Below, one piece after another: positions 579-24,390 of a DNA stretch of 34,934 bases. Position 1 is the stretch's first letter, and each line of letters begins with the position of its first letter. The DNA is from Alphaproteobacteria bacterium (lineage in GTDB: Bacteria > Pseudomonadota > Alphaproteobacteria > Bin95). Under the pieces are notes generated by a model. It ran no database searches, was not told the origin of the DNA, and saw nothing but the letters and a program-made list of their open reading frames with translations. The stretch covers positions 1 to 34,934 of the forward strand of contig JAPORR010000243.1 in assembly GCA_026710105.1 (NCBI GenBank), in the 5' to 3' direction. The position numbers and the translations under genes were made by a program.

Positions 579-1136
579 CTACTGATCCACGTCCCCGACC
601 TCTGGCGGCTGGTCCGCATCGATCACCCGCCGCGCCAGCTGCAGCCCGAAACCGGCCCGCGCCATGGCAGCGAGATCCTTGTCCCGCCGCGCCGCGCGCG
701 TGGACGGCGCGCGCCACGGCCCGAGCCGCCGGCGCCGCGCCAGCATCTGGGCAGCTTTCAGTTCGGCTTCATCATCTTCGTCCACAAGCAATCGCTCGGT
801 CTCGGCCCGTGCCAACCCCTTCGACGACAGTCGCGCTGCAAGCCCCCGCGCCGAAGTTCCGCGCCGGCGCAATGCACGCGCTTGCGCCTCGGCCCAAGCG
901 CGGTCATCGATCAACCCCATGCGGGCGAGATCAACGAGCACCGCGTCGATATCCTCCTCGCCGGCGCGAATCTCGTCCCCGCGCGCGGCGCCTCGCTCCA
1001 GCCGACGCTGCAATATATGCCGAACATGTGCCGCAGGTGCGGCATAGCGTGCGAGATAGGCCAGCGCGGACCGCCTTAGCCGCGCCCGGTCCCAGATGCC
1101 TGACGCCCTCTGTCTCTGCTGCTGCCAGGCTCTCAC
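579..1136 (-). CDS. recX: Regulatory protein RecX
   Basis: A protein of 185 residues, highly basic and helical, with the RecX layout of tandem three-helix repeats: LRRSALAYLARYAAPAAHVR near residue 20, then DIDAVLVDLARMGLIDDRAW around 82-101, AEAQARALRRRGTSARGLAA directly after, and a C-terminal KDLAAMARAGFGLQLARRVI repeat. RecX binds RecA filaments and limits recombinase activity. The first possible start is a GTG at 1136-1134 with a poor ribosome binding site, so a downstream start cannot be excluded. It is transcribed leftwards, 84 nt after the polyphosphate kinase gene, and recA is not in the window. The length fits the family. Confidence 0.88.
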   Translation of the reverse strand: MRAWQQQRQRASGIWDRARLRRSALAYLARYAAPAAHVRHILQRRLERGAARGDEIRAGEEDIDAVLVDLARMGLIDDRAWAEAQARALRRRGTSARGLAARLSSKGLARAETERLLVDEDDEAELKAAQMLARRRRLGPWRAPSTRAARRDKDLAAMARAGFGLQLARRVIDADQPPEVGDVDQ

Positions 1137-1220
1137 GGGGGCCCGCCTGGTTCATGCATGGCGGCATTGATGTGCAGGCCCATGGATCCCCTTTCTCCTG
1201 CACTACTGGGAGTATCGTCG

Positions 1221-2096
1221 TCAGACGCCCGGACCCATCGGCTCGCTGCGGTCCACCACGCGCTCGGCTGGGCCAAGGATCAGAGGGTCAGGACCGCAGA
1301 CTACGGCCGGGTCCCGGTCCGGGTAAGGTAGGTGAGAGAGGAAATGCTGCATGCAGGCAAGGCGCGCGCGTTTCTTGTCGTCCGACTTGACGACCGTCCA
1401 GGGCGCATCCGCCGTGTCTGTATAGAAGAACATCGCCTCCTTGGCCTCGGTATAGGCATCCCATTTGTCTAGCGAGGCAAGGTCGATTGGCGAGATCTTC
1501 CACTGCTTGAGCGGATCGGTCAGCCGACTGTCGAACCGCACCGCCTGCTCGTCCTGTGACACTGAAAACCAGTATTTAAACAACCTGATGCCGCTGCGCA
1601 CCAGCATCCGCTCAAGTTCCGGGCACTGGCGCATGAATTCCAGATATTCCGAGCCGGAACAGAACCCCATAACCCGCTCGACTCCGGCGCGGTTGTACCA
1701 GGACCGGTCGAACAGCACGATTTCACCCGCCGATGGTAGATGGCAGATATAGCGCTGGAAGAACCACTGACCGCGTTCGCGCTCGCTCGGCTTCTCCAGC
1801 GCCACGACGCGCGCCCCGCGCGGGTTCAGATGCTCCATGAAGCGTTTGATGGTGCCGCCCTTGCCGGCCGCATCGCGCCCCTCGAAGAGCAAGACCACCT
1901 TCTCGCCGGCATCCCTGATCCAGTGCTGCGCTTTCAGCAATTCGACCTGGAGCGCCGCCTTGAGTAGCTCATATTCGTCCCTCGGCAGACGATCCGCATA
2001 TGGGTAGACGCCTTCGCGAAAGGCCTTGGCCGCCGCCTCTTCCGTCATACCGCCGTCACCACCTGTGCCGTTCTGCGGCGCCATTCCGTTTTGCAT
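1221..2096 (-). CDS. ppk2: Polyphosphate kinase 2 family protein (PPK2)
   Basis: A 291-residue single-domain PPK2. PPK2 enzymes transfer phosphate between inorganic polyphosphate and nucleotides, often in the direction of GDP/ADP phosphorylation. Walker A is GRDAAGKGG (residues 73-81) and Walker B is FDRSWYNR (129-136). The lid region carries GQWFFQRYICHLP, followed by RLTDPLKQWKISPIDL and a DAYTEAKEAMF segment, all typical of one-domain PPK2. The first 16 residues are Gly-rich and poorly conserved, so Met17 (MTEEAAAKAF) is an alternative start. It lies upstream of recX on the same strand with an 84-nt gap. Class I versus class II/III, and so mono- or diphosphate preference, cannot be settled by eye. 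Confidence 0.92.
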   Translation of the reverse strand: MQNGMAPQNGTGGDGGMTEEAAAKAFREGVYPYADRLPRDEYELLKAALQVELLKAQHWIRDAGEKVVLLFEGRDAAGKGGTIKRFMEHLNPRGARVVALEKPSERERGQWFFQRYICHLPSAGEIVLFDRSWYNRAGVERVMGFCSGSEYLEFMRQCPELERMLVRSGIRLFKYWFSVSQDEQAVRFDSRLTDPLKQWKISPIDLASLDKWDAYTEAKEAMFFYTDTADAPWTVVKSDDKKRARLACMQHFLSHLPYPDRDPAVVCGPDPLILGPAERVVDRSEPMGPGV

Positions 2097-2219
2097 CGCT
2101 CGCCTCTCTGAAACCCGTTAACGTCATCGTCTGCCGCCTGGCTGTCGTCTGGCCGGGAGGCGATGTCACCATACGGCTATCTTAACATATTGAAGCAGCG
2201 TTTCTTTCTCTCACTCCTG

Positions 2220-3629
2220 CTATAGCGGTGGTTCCCGATCAGGGAAGCCGGTTTCCGCCTCATAAGCCGCGCCGAGGCTGTAGAGCGACGCTTCGCCAAA
2301 GGGACGGCCGATAAGCTGGACCGAGCCTGGCATGCCCAGCACCGCCTCTGGCGTCGGCAGCGCCAAGCCTGGAAGGGTAAGGTAGTTGAAAGGGCGTGTG
2401 CAGCGCGAAATGCGGGCGAGCACCGCCTCGAACCCCTGCGAGGCCCTGACATCGGTGTCCTCGATTGTTGGCGTGGCGATATTGAAGGTCGGTGCCAGTA
2501 GCACGTCGCAGACTGAGAACACGCGGTCCGCGAAATCCGCCACGATGCGCGGGCGCAGTTGCAGGGCAGCGAGATACTCGACCGCGCTAAAGCGGAAGCC
2601 CATCTCGCAGCGTGCACGCATCTGCGCGCCGTAGTCCGCGCGTCGTTCCCTCAGCCAGTGAGCGTGCAGCGTTGCCGCCTCGCAGGCGGTGAGCGGTGCT
2701 GACAGCGCGTTGATACGCGCCATGTCGCCGACCTCGACCTCGACCGGCTGGGCACCGGCCGAGACAAGAGCGGCGAGCGCGCTGTCGCGGGCTGCGAGTG
2801 CCGGCTCGTCCGCATCCTTCTCGAAGAAACCCCGAACAACACCGACCCGCACACCCGACGCGCGGGGCGCCCGTGCGGCGGCGGCATAGTCTTCTGTGGC
2901 AACCCGTGCTGAGGTCGGGTCAAGCGGGTCGCGCCCGGCGATCGCCGCCAGCATCAGCGCATTGTCGAGCACGGTCCGCGTGAGCGGGCCAACATTGTCG
3001 AGCGAGAAGGAGAGGCCCATGACGCCGAAGCGGCTGACCCGCGTTTGAGTCGGTTTCATGCCGACGAGATGGCAGAAGCCAGCAGGCAGGCGGATTGAGC
3101 CACCTGTGTCGGAGCCGAGCGTGCCGTAGCAGAGCCTAGCTGCTGTCGCTGACCCGGAACCGGAGGATGAGCCGCCGGTGATCCGGTCAGTATCCCAAGG
3201 ATTGCGGCAGGGGCCGAAATGCTCGTTATGCCCGGTCGGCCCCATCGCGAATTCGGCCATGTTGAGCCCGCCCAGATAGGTGGCGCCGGCCCGTTCCAGC
3301 CTTGTTAGGACGGTCGCGGTGATCTCGGGGCGGAAGTCCCGGCGGATGGCGCTGCCGCAGGTGGTGAGCCCACCGGCGCGATAATACATATCCTTGTGCG
3401 CGAGCGGCGCGCCGGCGAGCGGACCCAGCCTCTCGCCCTGGGCGCGTTGCGCATCCACGGCGGCGGCGCCCTTGCGAACGGTGTCCTCCTCGACCCGGAT
3501 GAAGGCGTTGAGCTTAGGATTCACAGCCGCGATCCGCGCCAGCGCGGCCTCTGCAAGCTCCGTCGCGGTGAAGTCGCCCTGGGCGACGCCTGCCGCCGCT
3601 TGGGCGAGAGTGAGGCCGGTCAGGCTCAT
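2220..3629 (-). CDS. Amidase signature family protein
   Basis: A 469-residue amidase-signature enzyme. The Ser-cisSer-Lys catalytic triad can be placed: Lys79 in GAPLAHKDMY, the cis-Ser Ser154 in GGSSSGSGSA (152-161), and nucleophile Ser178 in GSDTGGSIRLPA. Such enzymes hydrolyse amides; the group includes GatA, AtzE-type and aryl or aliphatic amidases. It is not a clear GatA: no gatB or recognisable gatC is nearby. The ATG at 3629 overlaps the stop of the preceding 61-residue gene by 4 nt (ATGA), so I chose it over longer upstream extensions. Translation is probably coupled to that small protein, which may be a partner subunit. The substrate is unknown. Confidence 0.88.
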   Translation of the reverse strand: MSLTGLTLAQAAAGVAQGDFTATELAEAALARIAAVNPKLNAFIRVEEDTVRKGAAAVDAQRAQGERLGPLAGAPLAHKDMYYRAGGLTTCGSAIRRDFRPEITATVLTRLERAGATYLGGLNMAEFAMGPTGHNEHFGPCRNPWDTDRITGGSSSGSGSATAARLCYGTLGSDTGGSIRLPAGFCHLVGMKPTQTRVSRFGVMGLSFSLDNVGPLTRTVLDNALMLAAIAGRDPLDPTSARVATEDYAAAARAPRASGVRVGVVRGFFEKDADEPALAARDSALAALVSAGAQPVEVEVGDMARINALSAPLTACEAATLHAHWLRERRADYGAQMRARCEMGFRFSAVEYLAALQLRPRIVADFADRVFSVCDVLLAPTFNIATPTIEDTDVRASQGFEAVLARISRCTRPFNYLTLPGLALPTPEAVLGMPGSVQLIGRPFGEASLYSLGAAYEAETGFPDREPPL

Positions 3630-12633: not shown

Positions 12634-15600
12634 TCACGGCTCTCCCACGAATAGCATATCGACGTGATTTGCGGCGCGCGCGGCGACCTCCTCGACCGAC
12701 TGGGCAAGGGCCTCGAAGACCAGCTTGCCGCCCGATAGACCGATCACGCCGACCGGCTCGACAGAGGTGTGCGCTCGTTCCTCCTCTGCGGCCAGTTGCG
12801 CGAGCCCCCATAGATTGCGCCAGAGCCGCGCCGCCTCCGCAAGGTCTTCTGCGGCTTTGGCGCCGATCGAGCCCAGTGTCTGGGCCGTGCCGAATACTGC
12901 CGCCGCATCGCCCTGCAGCAGGTCAGGCCGTTCGGCGGCGTGCAACAGCCGCAAGAAATCCGCTGCTGCCAACACGTCGCGCCGCCCGCCCGCCCTGTGC
13001 TCGATGTGCCGGAGTCCGTTGTCGGACTCCGTCTTTCGCCCGCGCATGGTAGCTAGCCCGGCCGCGAGTCGTTCCGCCGGGCGCGGTGCAGCGAAAATGT
13101 CTCGCTGCGCCGCTTCGAAACGTTCTCCCAGCCCACCCTCGGACCACACGACCCGTGCACGACCCAAGGCAGCCAGCGCCGGTGCGCTGGCGCGATCATG
13201 CGGGTAGTCCAGAAAGGCCTGCAGCGAACAGGCGAGCGGGCCATGGCTTCCGGTATCCCTTGTCTGCATGTCGAGCCGGTAGAGCCCGCCTTCAGCCGTC
13301 TCTGCGGTCAATGCCGTCGTCAAACGACGGCAAAGCCTCACATAGTAGATGTCTGGATCCAGGGGCTGGGGGCCGTCTGACGTTGCGCCCTCATGTTCGT
13401 AAAGCAGCATGAGGTCGAGGTCCGAGTTCACCGTCATCTCGCGGCCACCAAGTGCGCCGAGTGCCAAAAGTGCCGTCCTGCCGCCGGGCGGGTGCCCATG
13501 CACGGCAGCGAACGCTTCCTGCACGGCCGGCATCAGCACGCCGATGCAGGCCTCTGCAATATTGACGAGCGGCGGCCCGGCTTCCTCGGGTGATAGCCTG
13601 CCACGCAGCAAGTGTGCGCCGATCTGGAACAGGCGGTCATTCACCCAGCGGCGCACGACATCAAGCAGATCCGGCAGGTCGTCCGCGCGGCCCGCCACCG
13701 CTTCCAGCTCCGCCTGCATCTCGGCCCGGCCGAATTCGCGCGCATAGAACAGCCGCACCAGCCCCCGGCGGGCGGCTTCCGCAATTTCCGGCTCCAGACC
13801 CTCCTCGTCCGGCAGGTCCAGATCAGTGAAGTCGCGGCTGAGCGCGCTTTCCAGTAGAAGCGGGCGGCGCGTCAGCCGGGCGGCTAGCAGGGGCGCGGCG
13901 CCGGCAACCTCCATGACGATGGCAAGCAATTCGGGCCGTGCCGCCAGCAGCGAGAGTAACCGCCGGTCGGGCGGCAGACCGGCGAGGAAGCGGTCGAAGC
14001 GCGAGAGCGCTGCATCGGGATCAGGTGTGCCCGCCAGCGCTGTCAATATGTTCGGCAGCAGCCTTGCCAGCAGCGCGCGCGCGTCGTCGCGGCGCAGGAC
14101 AGGCACCCGGCCCGCGAGCCAGCGGCGCACGATCTCTGCGCTCCGGCCGCCATCGCCATAGCCCATGCCCGCAAGTGCCGCTTCTCCTTCTTCTTCCGCC
14201 GAGAAATCGATGCCTTCTGCATCCGGCGTGTCCAGCGGATCTTCGAACAGCGCCCCGTAATGGCGTTCCACCGCTGCGATATGTCCGTTCAGCTGCTCCG
14301 CAAACGCGCCGGTGGCAGCAAAAGCCAGGAAGGCCGCGATGCCAGCCAGACCATCTGCGCTCTCCGGCAAGCTGTGGGTCTGGCGGTCGTCCACCATCTG
14401 CAGCCGGTGCTCAACGCGGCGCAGGAAGCCGTAGGCGGCGTTGAGCTCGGCTGCTGCGCCCGGATTGACATGGCCAGCCGACACCAGCGCCTCCAGCGCC
14501 TCCAGCGTGCCGCAGCTGCGAAGGGCGGGGTCGCGCCCACCCCAGAGAAGCTGCTGCGCCTGCACGAAGAACTCGATCTCGCGGATGCCGCCACGGCCAA
14601 GTTTGACATTGTGGCCTTCGAGAGTCTCCCTGCCCGCACCGCGCGAGGCGTCGATCTGCTCCTTGATCGCACGGATATCCTGCGCGGCGGCGAAATCGAG
14701 ATGGCGGCGCCAGACAAAGGGTTGCAGTCCTTCCAGAAACATCCCGCCTGCCTCGATATCACCCGCAACGGGGCGCGCCTTTATCATCGCCGCGCGTTCC
14801 CAGTTGCGCCCGGCATTGCGGTAATAGAATGCCGCCGAGCGCACCGAGACAGCAGGCGGGGTCGAGCCCGGGTCCGGGCGGAGGCGCAAATCGGTTCGGA
14901 ACACATAACCCTGGGCGGTCTGCTGGCCCATGATGCGCATTAGCCCCTGCGCCAGCCGGGTGAAGGCCGGTTGGAGGCCGCGCCTGCCGACATAGGGCGT
15001 ACGATCCTGGTCGTAGAACAAGATCAGGTCGATATCACTCGAATAGTTGAGCTCCCGCGCGCCGAGCTTGCCCATGCCGAGCGCGAACAGGCCCGAGTCG
15101 CGCTCCGGGTCGTCGGGCTCCGGCAGCGCCAGTTCGCCCGCATCGTGAAGGCCGCGCAGCAGATGCCGGAAGGCCGCGCCCAGAGCCGTTTCAGCGAAAT
15201 CGGAGAGCGCGCCGGTCACCCGTTCCAGCGTCCAAACACCGGCGATGTCGCCGAGTGCGATGGCGAGCGCCGCGCGCCGCTTGGCCCGGCGCAGGCGGCC
15301 CATCACATCGGCGAGGGATTCTGCCGCGAAGCCCGTGCGGTCCGCGGCCTCGTCCCGGGCCGCCCGGTAGGCCGCGTCGGGCCCCGCTTCCAGCAGCAGC
15401 CGTGCGAAGCCGGAATCGGAGATCAGACTATGGCTCAGATAGGGGCTGTTCGCGAACACAGAGGAAAGCAACCGCCCGCTCGCCTGGTGATTCGCCCCGT
15501 CGGCCGCCGCCAGCATGAAGGCGTGCAGGCTGTCATCCTCTGCTGCTTGCGCCTCCTCGGCGGCTTCGCGCCAGCGCCGCCAGCAGGTCTCCGCTGCCTC

Positions 15601-15663
15601 GGCATCGGCGGCCAGCGGCAGCGCCGCGCCGTCTGCAATCCACTCTCCTGCCCCATCTGCCAT
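12634..15663 (-). CDS. glnE: Glutamine synthetase adenylyltransferase/deadenylylase
   Basis: A 1009-residue bifunctional enzyme that adds AMP to, and removes AMP from, glutamine synthetase in response to PII state. The N-terminal nucleotidyltransferase (deadenylylase) site is GMGKLGARELNYSSDIDLIL (196-215), with a well-kept later motif GRGGIREIEFFVQAQQL. The C-terminal (adenylylating) site is LGALGGREMTVNSDLDLMLL (735-754). In that half the motif that normally reads PGGLxDIEFxAQxL is changed to AGGRRDVLAAADFL, so the expected Glu is Leu (near residue 898). The protein is full length and in frame throughout. Its target GlnA and controller GlnB are encoded in this window at 22448-24264. Confidence 0.93.
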   Translation of the reverse strand: MADGAGEWIADGAALPLAADAEAAETCWRRWREAAEEAQAAEDDSLHAFMLAAADGANHQASGRLLSSVFANSPYLSHSLISDSGFARLLLEAGPDAAYRAARDEAADRTGFAAESLADVMGRLRRAKRRAALAIALGDIAGVWTLERVTGALSDFAETALGAAFRHLLRGLHDAGELALPEPDDPERDSGLFALGMGKLGARELNYSSDIDLILFYDQDRTPYVGRRGLQPAFTRLAQGLMRIMGQQTAQGYVFRTDLRLRPDPGSTPPAVSVRSAAFYYRNAGRNWERAAMIKARPVAGDIEAGGMFLEGLQPFVWRRHLDFAAAQDIRAIKEQIDASRGAGRETLEGHNVKLGRGGIREIEFFVQAQQLLWGGRDPALRSCGTLEALEALVSAGHVNPGAAAELNAAYGFLRRVEHRLQMVDDRQTHSLPESADGLAGIAAFLAFAATGAFAEQLNGHIAAVERHYGALFEDPLDTPDAEGIDFSAEEEGEAALAGMGYGDGGRSAEIVRRWLAGRVPVLRRDDARALLARLLPNILTALAGTPDPDAALSRFDRFLAGLPPDRRLLSLLAARPELLAIVMEVAGAAPLLAARLTRRPLLLESALSRDFTDLDLPDEEGLEPEIAEAARRGLVRLFYAREFGRAEMQAELEAVAGRADDLPDLLDVVRRWVNDRLFQIGAHLLRGRLSPEEAGPPLVNIAEACIGVLMPAVQEAFAAVHGHPPGGRTALLALGALGGREMTVNSDLDLMLLYEHEGATSDGPQPLDPDIYYVRLCRRLTTALTAETAEGGLYRLDMQTRDTGSHGPLACSLQAFLDYPHDRASAPALAALGRARVVWSEGGLGERFEAAQRDIFAAPRPAERLAAGLATMRGRKTESDNGLRHIEHRAGGRRDVLAAADFLRLLHAAERPDLLQGDAAAVFGTAQTLGSIGAKAAEDLAEAARLWRNLWGLAQLAAEEERAHTSVEPVGVIGLSGGKLVFEALAQSVEEVAARAANHVDMLFVGEP

Positions 15664-15728: not shown

Positions 15729-16877
15729 TCAGGCGTCACTGATGCCTGCGCAGGTCTCCGCTAGAATCTGATCTACCACGGCATGTAGCGCCTCGCGCCG
15801 GTCCGCACCGTCCAGTAGGCTCAGGCGGTATCGTTCGACCTGCCGGTCGGCCGACGAGCCGTCGCGCAGGATCGATGGAATCCGGCATAGTTCTCGCTCG
15901 CAGTCGAGGGCGCGGGCGTCCTCCGCAACCTCTGCCAGCAGCGCCTCGACGCTGTCTGCGATGTCGCGGTGCCCGCCGTGCTCTGCATCGCCGATGAAGG
16001 CGAGCGTTCCGTAACGCCGGGCGCGCCAGCAATTCTCGATGATGATTTCGGTGGAAGGTTCGGGAGGCAAGCCCTCCGACGCATCGCGCCGCTGCAGCCA
16101 GCGCAGAGTCGCCGCATACAAGGCGGCCAGCGCGATAGCGTCGTCCATGCGTGGGCAGATATCGCAAATCCTAAGCTCAATCGTAGGAAAGGCGTTATGC
16201 GGGCGGATATCCAGCCAAAGCTCGCTGCTGTCGCGCAGGGAGCCGGCGCGGCGATATTCTGTCACCAGGTCATCGAACTCGGCCTGCGAGCCGAAGGCGC
16301 GGGGCATGCCGGTACGCGGCAGGGCGCCGATGACGATCGATCGGTAGGAACTGAACCCGGTATAGCTGCCGGCATTGAAGGGGGAGGACGCTGACAGCGC
16401 GATGAACAGCGGCAGATAGCGGCGCGCGGCCGTCATCACGCGGATACGCGAATCAGGGTCGCCGAAGCCTGCATGGATGTGCATTCCGCCTACCAGGAAA
16501 CGCCGCACGACCTCCTGCATCTGGATTTCAAACTCGCGATAGCGCTGCTTCGGTGTGACCAATTGCTCCCGCCACGCCGCGAAGGGATGCGTTGAAGTGG
16601 CCATGACGCGGGCGCCATGCGCAGCGGCCGCCTCCGCGACCAGCCGGCGCGTCTCGGTGAGCGCCATGCGGAGGTCGGTAATCGAGGCGCACACCCGCGT
16701 ATTGGTTTCAAGCTGCGAGCGTAGGAATTCCGGCACCACGCTGTGCGGGCCACACGTCCGCTGGCACTGTTCTATGATGGCGGGGTTGGGGTCGGCGATG
16801 ATGTCGCGCGTCTGCGGATCGACCAGGAAGAACTCTTCCTCGATGCCAAAGGTGAATGTTAGGCCGGCATCAGTCAT
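15729..16877 (-). CDS. YbdK-type carboxylate-amine ligase (GCS2 family)
   Basis: A 382-residue protein of the glutamate-cysteine ligase family 2 (YbdK/EgtA-like). It opens LTFTFGIEEEFFLVDPQTRD with the acidic metal-binding cluster GIEEEF. Other landmarks are SQLETNTRVCASITDLRMAL, GARVMATSTHPFAAWREQ, VGGMHIHAGFGDPDSRIRVM and TIELRICDICPRMDDAI. Family members form gamma-glutamyl-type bonds; YbdK itself has weak glutamate-cysteine ligase activity and the true substrate is often unknown. It ends 65 nt before glnE on the same strand, so the two may be co-transcribed. Confidence 0.88.
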   Translation of the reverse strand: MTDAGLTFTFGIEEEFFLVDPQTRDIIADPNPAIIEQCQRTCGPHSVVPEFLRSQLETNTRVCASITDLRMALTETRRLVAEAAAAHGARVMATSTHPFAAWREQLVTPKQRYREFEIQMQEVVRRFLVGGMHIHAGFGDPDSRIRVMTAARRYLPLFIALSASSPFNAGSYTGFSSYRSIVIGALPRTGMPRAFGSQAEFDDLVTEYRRAGSLRDSSELWLDIRPHNAFPTIELRICDICPRMDDAIALAALYAATLRWLQRRDASEGLPPEPSTEIIIENCWRARRYGTLAFIGDAEHGGHRDIADSVEALLAEVAEDARALDCERELCRIPSILRDGSSADRQVERYRLSLLDGADRREALHAVVDQILAETCAGISDA

Positions 16878-22447: not shown

Positions 22448-23869
22448 TCAGACGCTGTAATACATCTTGAACTCGACTGGGTGTGGCGTGTGCTCAAGGG
22501 CGTAAACCTCGTTCCATTTGAGGCCTATATAGCCGTCGATCAGATCGTCGGAGAACACATCGCCACGCGTGAGAAAGGAGCGATCCGCGTCAAGGCTTTC
22601 CAGTGCCTCGCGCAGAGATCCGCATACGGTTGGCACACCCTGCAATTCCTCCGGCGGCAGGTCGTAGAGGTTCTTGTCCATCGGCTCGCCCGGATGGATT
22701 TTGTTAATGACCCCGTCAATACCCGCCATTAGCATCGCCGCAAAGGAGAGATAGGGGTTTGCGCCCGGATCGGGGAAGCGGACCTCGACACGCTTGCCGT
22801 TCGGGCTCGCTACATAGGGAATGCGACAAGAAGCCGAGCGGTTGCGGCTCGAATAGGCCAGCAGCACCGGGGCCTCGAAGCCGGGAATCAAGCGCTTGTA
22901 GGAATTGGTAAGCGGGTTGGAGAAGGCGTTGATGGCCTTCGCATGCCGAATAATGCCACCAATATAGTAGAGCGCGAACTCCGAGAGGTCGGCATAGCCA
23001 TGGCCAGCGAAAAGCGGCTGGCCGTCTTTCCAGACTGACTGATGGACATGCATGCCGGACCCATTATCACCCATGACCGGCTTCGGCATGAAGGTTGCCG
23101 TCTTGCCATAGCTGTGCGCGACCATATGGGTCACATATTTGTAGATCTGCAGCGCGTCGGCAGAGCCGACCAGAGTGCCGAATTTCAGGCCGAGCTCATG
23201 CTGAGAGGGCGCCACTTCATGGTGGTGCTTCTCCATGTCGAGGCCCATCTCGGCCATGGTCGAGACCATTTCCGAGCGCATGTCCTGGCCGCTGTCCACG
23301 GGTGCGACCGGGAAATAGCCGCCCTTCACATCGGGACGATGGCCGGGATTGCCCTCATCGAACTCGGTCCCGGAATTGTAAGGACCTTCTGCACTATCGA
23401 GCATGAAGAAGGTCCGATTCATCGATACGTCGAAGCGCACGTCGTCGAAGACGAAGAATTCGGCTTCCGGACCGAAATAGGCCGTGTCGCCGATACCGGC
23501 TTCCTGGATATAGGCTTCGGCCTTCTTGGAGACCGAGCGCGGGCACCGCTCATAAGCCATGCCGGTGGACGGCTCGTGGACATCGCAGAACAACACCATG
23601 GTGTTCTCGGCCATGAACGGATCCATGACTGCCGTTGTGGCGTCCGGCATGAGGATCATGTCGGACTCATTGATGTCCTTCCAGCCGGCGATGGACGAGC
23701 CATCGAAGAAGATGCCGTCCACGAAGACATCCTCGTCGATCGTCGTCACATACTGGGCGGTGTGCTGCCATTTGCCGCGCGGATCAGTAAAGCGCAGATC
23801 CACATGGCGGACATCATTGTCCTGGATTGCCTTGAGTACATCCTCAGGCGTCTTGCAGTTAAGCGACAT
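22448..23869 (-). CDS. glnA: Glutamine synthetase type I
   Basis: A 473-residue GSI, making glutamine from glutamate, ammonia and ATP as a dodecamer. Landmarks are [20 protein letters not shown], the catalytic [19 protein letters not shown], the His loop [18 protein letters not shown], the ATP-binding [20 protein letters not shown] and [20 protein letters not shown]. The adenylylation site is present as Tyr402 in [10 protein letters not shown], so it is the GlnE-regulated form. GAGGAGGGAG precedes the ATG at 23869. It follows glnB by 56 nt on the same strand, the usual alphaproteobacterial glnB-glnA operon. Confidence 0.97.

Positions 23870-23925: not shown

Positions 23926-24390
<465 letters not shown>

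Follow-up and report, generated by a model that had tools for sequence, protein, structure and literature searches.

The window analyzed here, a 34,934-nucleotide stretch (contig JAPORR010000243.1 of assembly GCA_026710105.1) from an alphaproteobacterium of the GTDB lineage Bin95, codes for the second GlnE paralog of its genome. We label the subfamily of this gene GlnE-B and the canonical GlnE A. We consider it probable that GlnE-B keeps the adenylyl-removing enzyme, has lost or nearly lost adenylylation, and removes adenosine monophosphate (AMP) from the glutamine synthetase (GS) GlnA, with a separate GlnE adding it. Five observations underlie this proposal: the paralogy of the two genes, the motif states of their halves, a reciprocal decay of the two copies in a genus of another family (hereinafter g225), purifying selection on the decayed half, and the presence of GlnA, three PII proteins and one GlnD in the window's genome. 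All the genomes compared are drafts.

GlnE-B matches PF03710 in two stretches, corresponding to two homologous nucleotidyltransferase halves, while PF08335 matches it once as compared to twice in the canonical copy. We scored nine positions in the deadenylylating half and 11 in the adenylylating half (20 in all; positions discussed below, in the canonical numbering of E. coli GlnE: D173, R225, E325; D701, D703, D752, R754, W782, E783, E856); of these, we take D173 in the former half and D701, D703 and D752 in the latter to be catalytic. The N-terminal half of GlnE-B matches PDB 1v4a and the C-terminal half PDB 3k7d; in E. coli GlnE, deadenylylation resides in the N-terminal half and adenylylation in the C-terminal one (PMC12409994, excerpt). 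The scored positions of the deadenylylating half, with the signatures SSDIDL, RxDLRLRP and GGIREIEF, are conserved in all 15 GlnE-B copies that we recovered, whereas the adenylylating half is altered in every one of them. In the window copy, R754 is replaced by Gln, RLRPSG by QTRDTG, WTWEH by SAPAL and the Glu of GGxxDxEF by Leu, such that the RLRP, WTWEH and GGxxDxEF signatures are all missing. The equivalents of D701, D703 and D752 (D748, D750 and D798, in SDLDL and RLDM) are retained. In all likelihood, the adenylylating function of this half is lost or nearly so.

An earlier note on this DNA had pointed to the Leu in place of the expected Glu, to the well-aligned flanks and to the intact GGIREIEF of the other half, and all three hold. 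A profile–profile alignment of seven same-genus copies against six canonical GlnE is gapless across the motif and so leaves no neighboring Glu to stand in for the lost one; realignment of the motif can hence be set aside. The note had presented the change as the loss of a single residue, which is right for the Glu but understates the extent of the alteration. It had further suggested a bias toward deadenylylation: an intact second GlnE, the conservation of the subfamily and the reciprocal decay in g225 speak for this direction, but the Glu is a weak reason for it. The note was written without knowledge of that second GlnE; its alternative of a variant site keeps some probability for the window copy, in which the three aspartates are retained. 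Among the 44 rows with a letter at E856 in our canonical comparison set (46 rows gathered during earlier searches rather than sampled at random), 41 have Glu, two Asp and one Gly. As the row with Gly, from G009 of the window's family (one GlnE found), has its other scored positions intact, Leu898 alone proves little. The GlnD of the window's genome likewise has His at this position (GGLRDLH), and GlnE-B of g225 keeps the Glu while having lost the first catalytic Asp. Judging from the motifs, the telling feature is the set of changes within the adenylylating half and not the Glu alone.

The other full-length GlnE of the window's genome (C103:33426-36017) has 20 of 20 scored positions intact across both halves. 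Four congeners also have a canonical copy, and all scored positions are intact in the five found. GlnE-B itself is present in seven of the eight genomes of the window's genus that were searched, with orthologs of 76–80% identity in six other species; it was not found in the eighth, G007. Among six genomes from other genera of the family, four yielded matches, canonical by both motif and tree, and two yielded none. Across the seven same-genus GlnE-B copies, all nine scored positions of the deadenylylating half are intact. In the adenylylating half, the Glu position is Ala in five, Leu in one and Gly in one; W782 is Pro in all seven (Trp in all but one of 44 canonical rows); D701 is kept in four and replaced by Glu in three; and D703 and D752 are kept throughout. 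The mean column identity among these copies is 87% in the C-terminal half and 89% over the whole protein.

A search of a class sample of 385 genomes led via one genome, G299, to a search of 21 genomes of its family (threshold 1e-50), where GlnE-B was found in 8/8 genomes of g225 and in 0/13 genomes outside that genus at the same threshold. All eight g225 genomes also have an A-type copy. In g225, GlnE-B shows all nine scored positions of the deadenylylating half intact (8/8), while in its adenylylating half D701 is Pro (8/8), the LRP of the RLRP motif is PRP (8/8) and E783 is Gln (7/8); E856 is retained in all eight. The A copy shows the converse: D173 is lost in all eight (Ala in four, Glu in three, Thr in one), E325 is changed in all eight (Gln in seven, Asn in one), R225 is Lys in six, and its adenylylating half is intact at all 11 scored positions in every genome. 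As a control, every one of the 45 canonical rows that have a residue at D173 shows Asp, as do the five A copies from the window's genus; E325 varies slightly more, two of these 45 rows being exceptions. Two paralogs with both halves decayed, from G103 and G238, have Pro at both D173 and D701 and were kept outside the canonical set. Such mirror-image decay would look like the pattern expected of a bifunctional enzyme split into two one-way enzymes, and supports a predicted role of GlnE-B as a dedicated deadenylylase.

Calculated from six GlnE-B copies of the window's genus (B_G005 being omitted as close to B_G002), the ratio of nonsynonymous to synonymous substitution rates (dN/dS) is 0.139 in the deadenylylating half and 0.172 in the adenylylating half. 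Overall, the decayed half of GlnE-B has a dN/dS of 0.17–0.23; it is therefore under purifying selection and GlnE-B is not a pseudogene. The quotient of the two dN/dS values, deadenylylating over adenylylating half, is 1.36 (95% interval 1.08–1.71) for A and 0.69 (0.50–1.00) for GlnE-B in g225, as compared to 0.95 (0.67–1.32) for A and 0.80 (0.59–1.06) for GlnE-B in the window's genus. These quotients agree in direction with the reciprocal decay of the motifs.

From the sequences we infer a substrate, direction and regulation for GlnE-B, as well as a role and a folded state for its decayed half. We posit that it would remove AMP by phosphorolysis from Tyr402 of GlnA, the assumed substrate, and would be governed by the PII/GlnD cascade. 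The separate GlnE would add AMP, with removal as a possible second activity in the window's genus. The setting for such a cycle exists in the window's genome, which codes for three GS-family proteins (GlnA and two others), alongside the three PII proteins and the single GlnD; the target Tyr of GlnA, also reported in the earlier note, is indeed present within NLYDLPPEE. The decayed half probably persists as a folded domain with weak catalysis or none, most plausibly in a regulatory, sensing or docking role. AlphaFold2 models made from GlnE-B and seven close sequences were unusable both for the full-length protein (mean predicted local distance difference test score, pLDDT, 39.5) and for its C-terminal half (mean pLDDT 48.7).

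Several points weigh against this proposal. Since the window copy keeps the equivalents of D701, D703 and D752, it may have residual adenylylation activity. The A copy of the window's genus looks bifunctional, and GlnE-B would therefore add to deadenylylation there and not replace it. The intervals of the half-to-half quotient for GlnE-B reach 1.0 in both genera, and only that of A in g225 clearly excludes 1. Finally, no canonical GlnE was found in G005 (listed as 100% complete) or G006 (75%); GlnE-B would be alone in these two genomes if the absence is real, although missing contigs may explain it.

With regard to other explanations, a different target that GlnE-B would deadenylylate or otherwise act on, namely either of the other GS-family proteins or the neighboring YbdK-type ligase, strikes us as rather unlikely. 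Two further GS-family genes are available in the genome, and the ligase lies upstream of GlnE-B in six other same-genus loci as well as in the window. However, the two genes are adjacent in only three of those six loci and about 1 kb apart in the other three, and no match to the ligase turned up within the 14 kb surrounding the single g225 copy that was checked. Further, all the scored deadenylylating positions are canonical, and the g225 partner lacks the motifs of the opposite activity, which fits a shared target. We also regard it as unlikely that GlnE-B is still bifunctional, with a remodeled adenylylating site operating on three aspartates without the Glu, RLRP or WTWEH. The aspartates of the window copy and their partial to full retention among its congeners would favor such a site, as would the canonical-looking G009 protein devoid of the Glu, and GlnD, with whose GGLRDLH same-genus GlnE-B shares the Arg (GGLRDV in 6/7, GGRRDV in the window). 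Against it stand the replacement of D701 by Glu in 3/7 same-genus and by Pro in 8/8 g225 copies, the invariant Pro at W782 in the former, and a g225 partner specialized in the opposite direction.

It would be most surprising if the changes came from a decaying gene that is merely drifting, or from faulty assembly. The assemblies are indeed drafts, with six of the eight same-genus genomes showing 2–9% contamination or 75–98% completeness; but full-length open frames are found in 15/15 copies (seven from the window's genus and eight from g225), the identity to the six congeners is high, the neighboring genes are conserved, and a dN/dS of 0.17 in the decayed half contradicts drift. A predominantly deadenylylating GlnE-B is the reading that we prefer.

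In the class sample, the deadenylylating half is found at an E-value threshold of 1e-35 in 242 of the 385 genomes, of which nine show two matches; few candidates were scored per genome, and second copies may be missed. Two of these nine, G015 and G159, appear to have one gene split over contigs. Five of the remaining seven (G000, which is the window's own genome, G003, G020, G093 and G299) have a copy whose deadenylylating half is intact and whose adenylylating half has decayed. The other two comprise G103, with two copies in which D701, D703, D173 and D175 are intact plus one decayed in both halves, and G238, where the second copy is truncated by a contig end and another copy is decayed in both halves. 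These long, doubly decayed paralogs (loci L165 and L164, respectively) share 24–25% identity with the canonical GlnE of the window's genome. G005 shows GlnE-B alone in this sample. In G093, the paralog with the wrecked adenylylating half is encoded by an open reading frame at 712-3606 (-) of locus L161; it lies on a long branch outside the GlnE-B clade in a second deadenylylating-half tree (16 divergent, partial or closely related rows omitted), and may be an independent case of the same state. A search of a phylum sample of 398 genomes at E-value 1e-58 recovered the window's genome as the sole match.

In a tree of the adenylylating half (57 rows, with a single g225 copy and without C_G000b, C_G001, C_G002a and C_G002b), GlnE-B and a set of AlkB-fused relatives, termed class C and described below, form one clade of 20 rows within the alphaproteobacterial GlnE (support 100/100), the branching order of the g225 copy relative to the rest being weakly supported (83/31). 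In the deadenylylating-half tree, GlnE-B of the two genera groups with the second copy of G020 (G020b) under the LG+G4 model (98/90); under a mixture model, the two genera group at 94/78, and at 89/73 when G020b is included. By contrast, G020b lies outside GlnE-B on a long branch in the adenylylating-half tree and lacks the approximately 27-residue insertion that marks the clade; its membership is uncertain because the half-trees disagree and the insertion is absent. G020 is the only genome available for its family and has 7% contamination. The partial genes at L012 (G038) and L027 (G015) were kept outside all alignments.

GlnE-B shares with the bifunctional GlnE (GS adenylyltransferase, GS-ATase; E. 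coli b3053) the two-half architecture, the scored N-terminal positions and a match to PRK14108 above cut-off. It differs in its C-terminal half, where RLRP, WTWEH and the glutamate of GGxxDxEF are lost, in having the insertion and in being a second copy. This single NCBIfam model, named 'bifunctional', takes both copies of the window's genome above cut-off, a point of relevance to annotation. GlnD is a related transferase with a GGLRD motif devoid of the Glu, but GlnD models match GlnE-B only in short stretches far below cut-off. Engineered truncated GlnE adenylylates GS constitutively in Azospirillum brasilense and Azorhizobium caulinodans (PMC10657418, excerpt); as predicted for GlnE-B, it exerts one of the opposing activities alone, although GlnE-B is natural, full-length and of the opposite direction, with removal kept. 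We found neither a paired or split GlnE nor a GlnE with AlkB in the titles and abstract beginnings of open-licence PMC papers, where a mention within the text is possible.

The presence of both opposing activities of the GS cascade in one protein is a standing question in signaling, for which a lineage with the activities apparently split over two proteins offers a natural comparison. If true, the split would let the addition and removal of AMP be regulated separately. The features of the window are collected below.

Features of GlnE-B and its neighbors in the window
Feature	Position	Strand	Evidence
GlnE-B, 1009 aa, second GlnE paralog of the genome	12634..15663	-	PRK14108 865.9 bits, cut-off 724
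N-terminal adenylyl-removing half (residues 60-478), no scored position changed	14230..15486	-	PDB 1v4a
SSDIDL, adenylyl-removing half, intact	15025..15042	-	motif
RTDLRLRP, adenylyl-removing half, intact	14875..14898	-	motif
GGIREIEF, adenylyl-removing half, residues 358-365, intact	14569..14592	-	motif
C-terminal adenylylating half (residues 573-1004), without the accessory motifs	12652..13947	-	PDB 3k7d
FTDLDLP...GLVRLFY, residues 612-640, with ~27-residue insertion	13744..13830	-	pattern + alignment
SDLDL, adenylylating half, kept (D748, D750)	13411..13425	-	motif
RLDMQTRDTG where canonical GlnE has ExDxRLRPSG; Asp798 retained, first Arg and RP missing	13249..13278	-	motif
SAPALAALGRAR in place of WTWEHxALxRAR	13153..13188	-	motif
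AGGRRDVLAAADFL, residues 891-904, in place of xGGLxDxEFxAQxL; Leu898 = codon 12970-12972	12952..12993	-	profile alignment
YbdK-type carboxylate-amine ligase (GCS2), upstream of GlnE-B	15729..16877	-	
GlnA, target-type Tyr402 (22664-22666)	22448..23869	-	
PII protein, upstream of glnA; P-II match 23947-24264	23926..24330	-	

In the class C proteins, an AlkB-like protein carries at its C-terminal end a fused domain that is related to the adenylylating half of GlnE-B. Such fusions of an AlkB-like membrane monooxygenase with a GlnE-derived domain are seen at L034:6432-8870 (-) and 16 further loci, and in 10 of the 385 class-sample genomes from four families (f1, f66, f76 and f81); loci L103–L105 are excluded from the class C counts. 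The window's genome has two copies (L032 and L033), both cut at contig ends. In a profile comparison the domain matches canonical GlnE with a probability of 100 (E-value 1.9e-44, 23% identity), and the AlkB-like part of L034 matches PDB 8f6t (E-value 4.1e-48). The four AlkB His motifs, in somewhat relaxed patterns, are present in 11 of 16 class C rows (L094, a split frame, stands outside these); of the remaining five, four are truncated by contig ends and one has a shortened frame. By pattern, the insertion is found in 29/29 GlnE-B and class C rows that cover it; by alignment, it occurs in 15/15 GlnE-B rows as compared to 0/62 other covering GlnE rows. Class C has lost or altered the first catalytic Asp and the RLRP stretch, yet often retains GGxxDVE. 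The domain had no match in the plasmids searched. Fusions of the AlkB alkane monooxygenase to electron-transfer domains are known (PMC8918992, excerpt); class C resembles these in placing a domain C-terminal to an AlkB-like protein with His motifs, but the domain is GlnE-derived instead of a rubredoxin or ferredoxin and the gene usually lies near YcaO.

More tentatively, we can envisage a wider scenario in which GlnE was split in one alphaproteobacterial genus into add-only and remove-only paralogs, with the two directions separately regulated, and in which the retired half found a new use as a non-catalytic module, attached to a membrane oxygenase of the AlkB type within clusters resembling those for ribosomally synthesized and post-translationally modified peptides (RiPPs). 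The class C fusions suggest that a pseudo-nucleotidyltransferase domain can be shuffled among proteins of nitrogen control and enzymes of oxygenation or peptide modification. Of the 17 class C loci examined, the three from f76 have no nearby YcaO gene, and the other 14 have one downstream (about 1.2 kb away at L042). At L034, the exporter (662.4 against a cut-off of 709.4) and NHLP leader (35.7 against 50.9) matches are below cut-off, while the YcaO protein passes the cut-offs of both TIGR03604 (SagD-family) and TIGR03882 (leader-binding); going by these genes, we provisionally read the surroundings of class C as a putative RiPP-type cluster.

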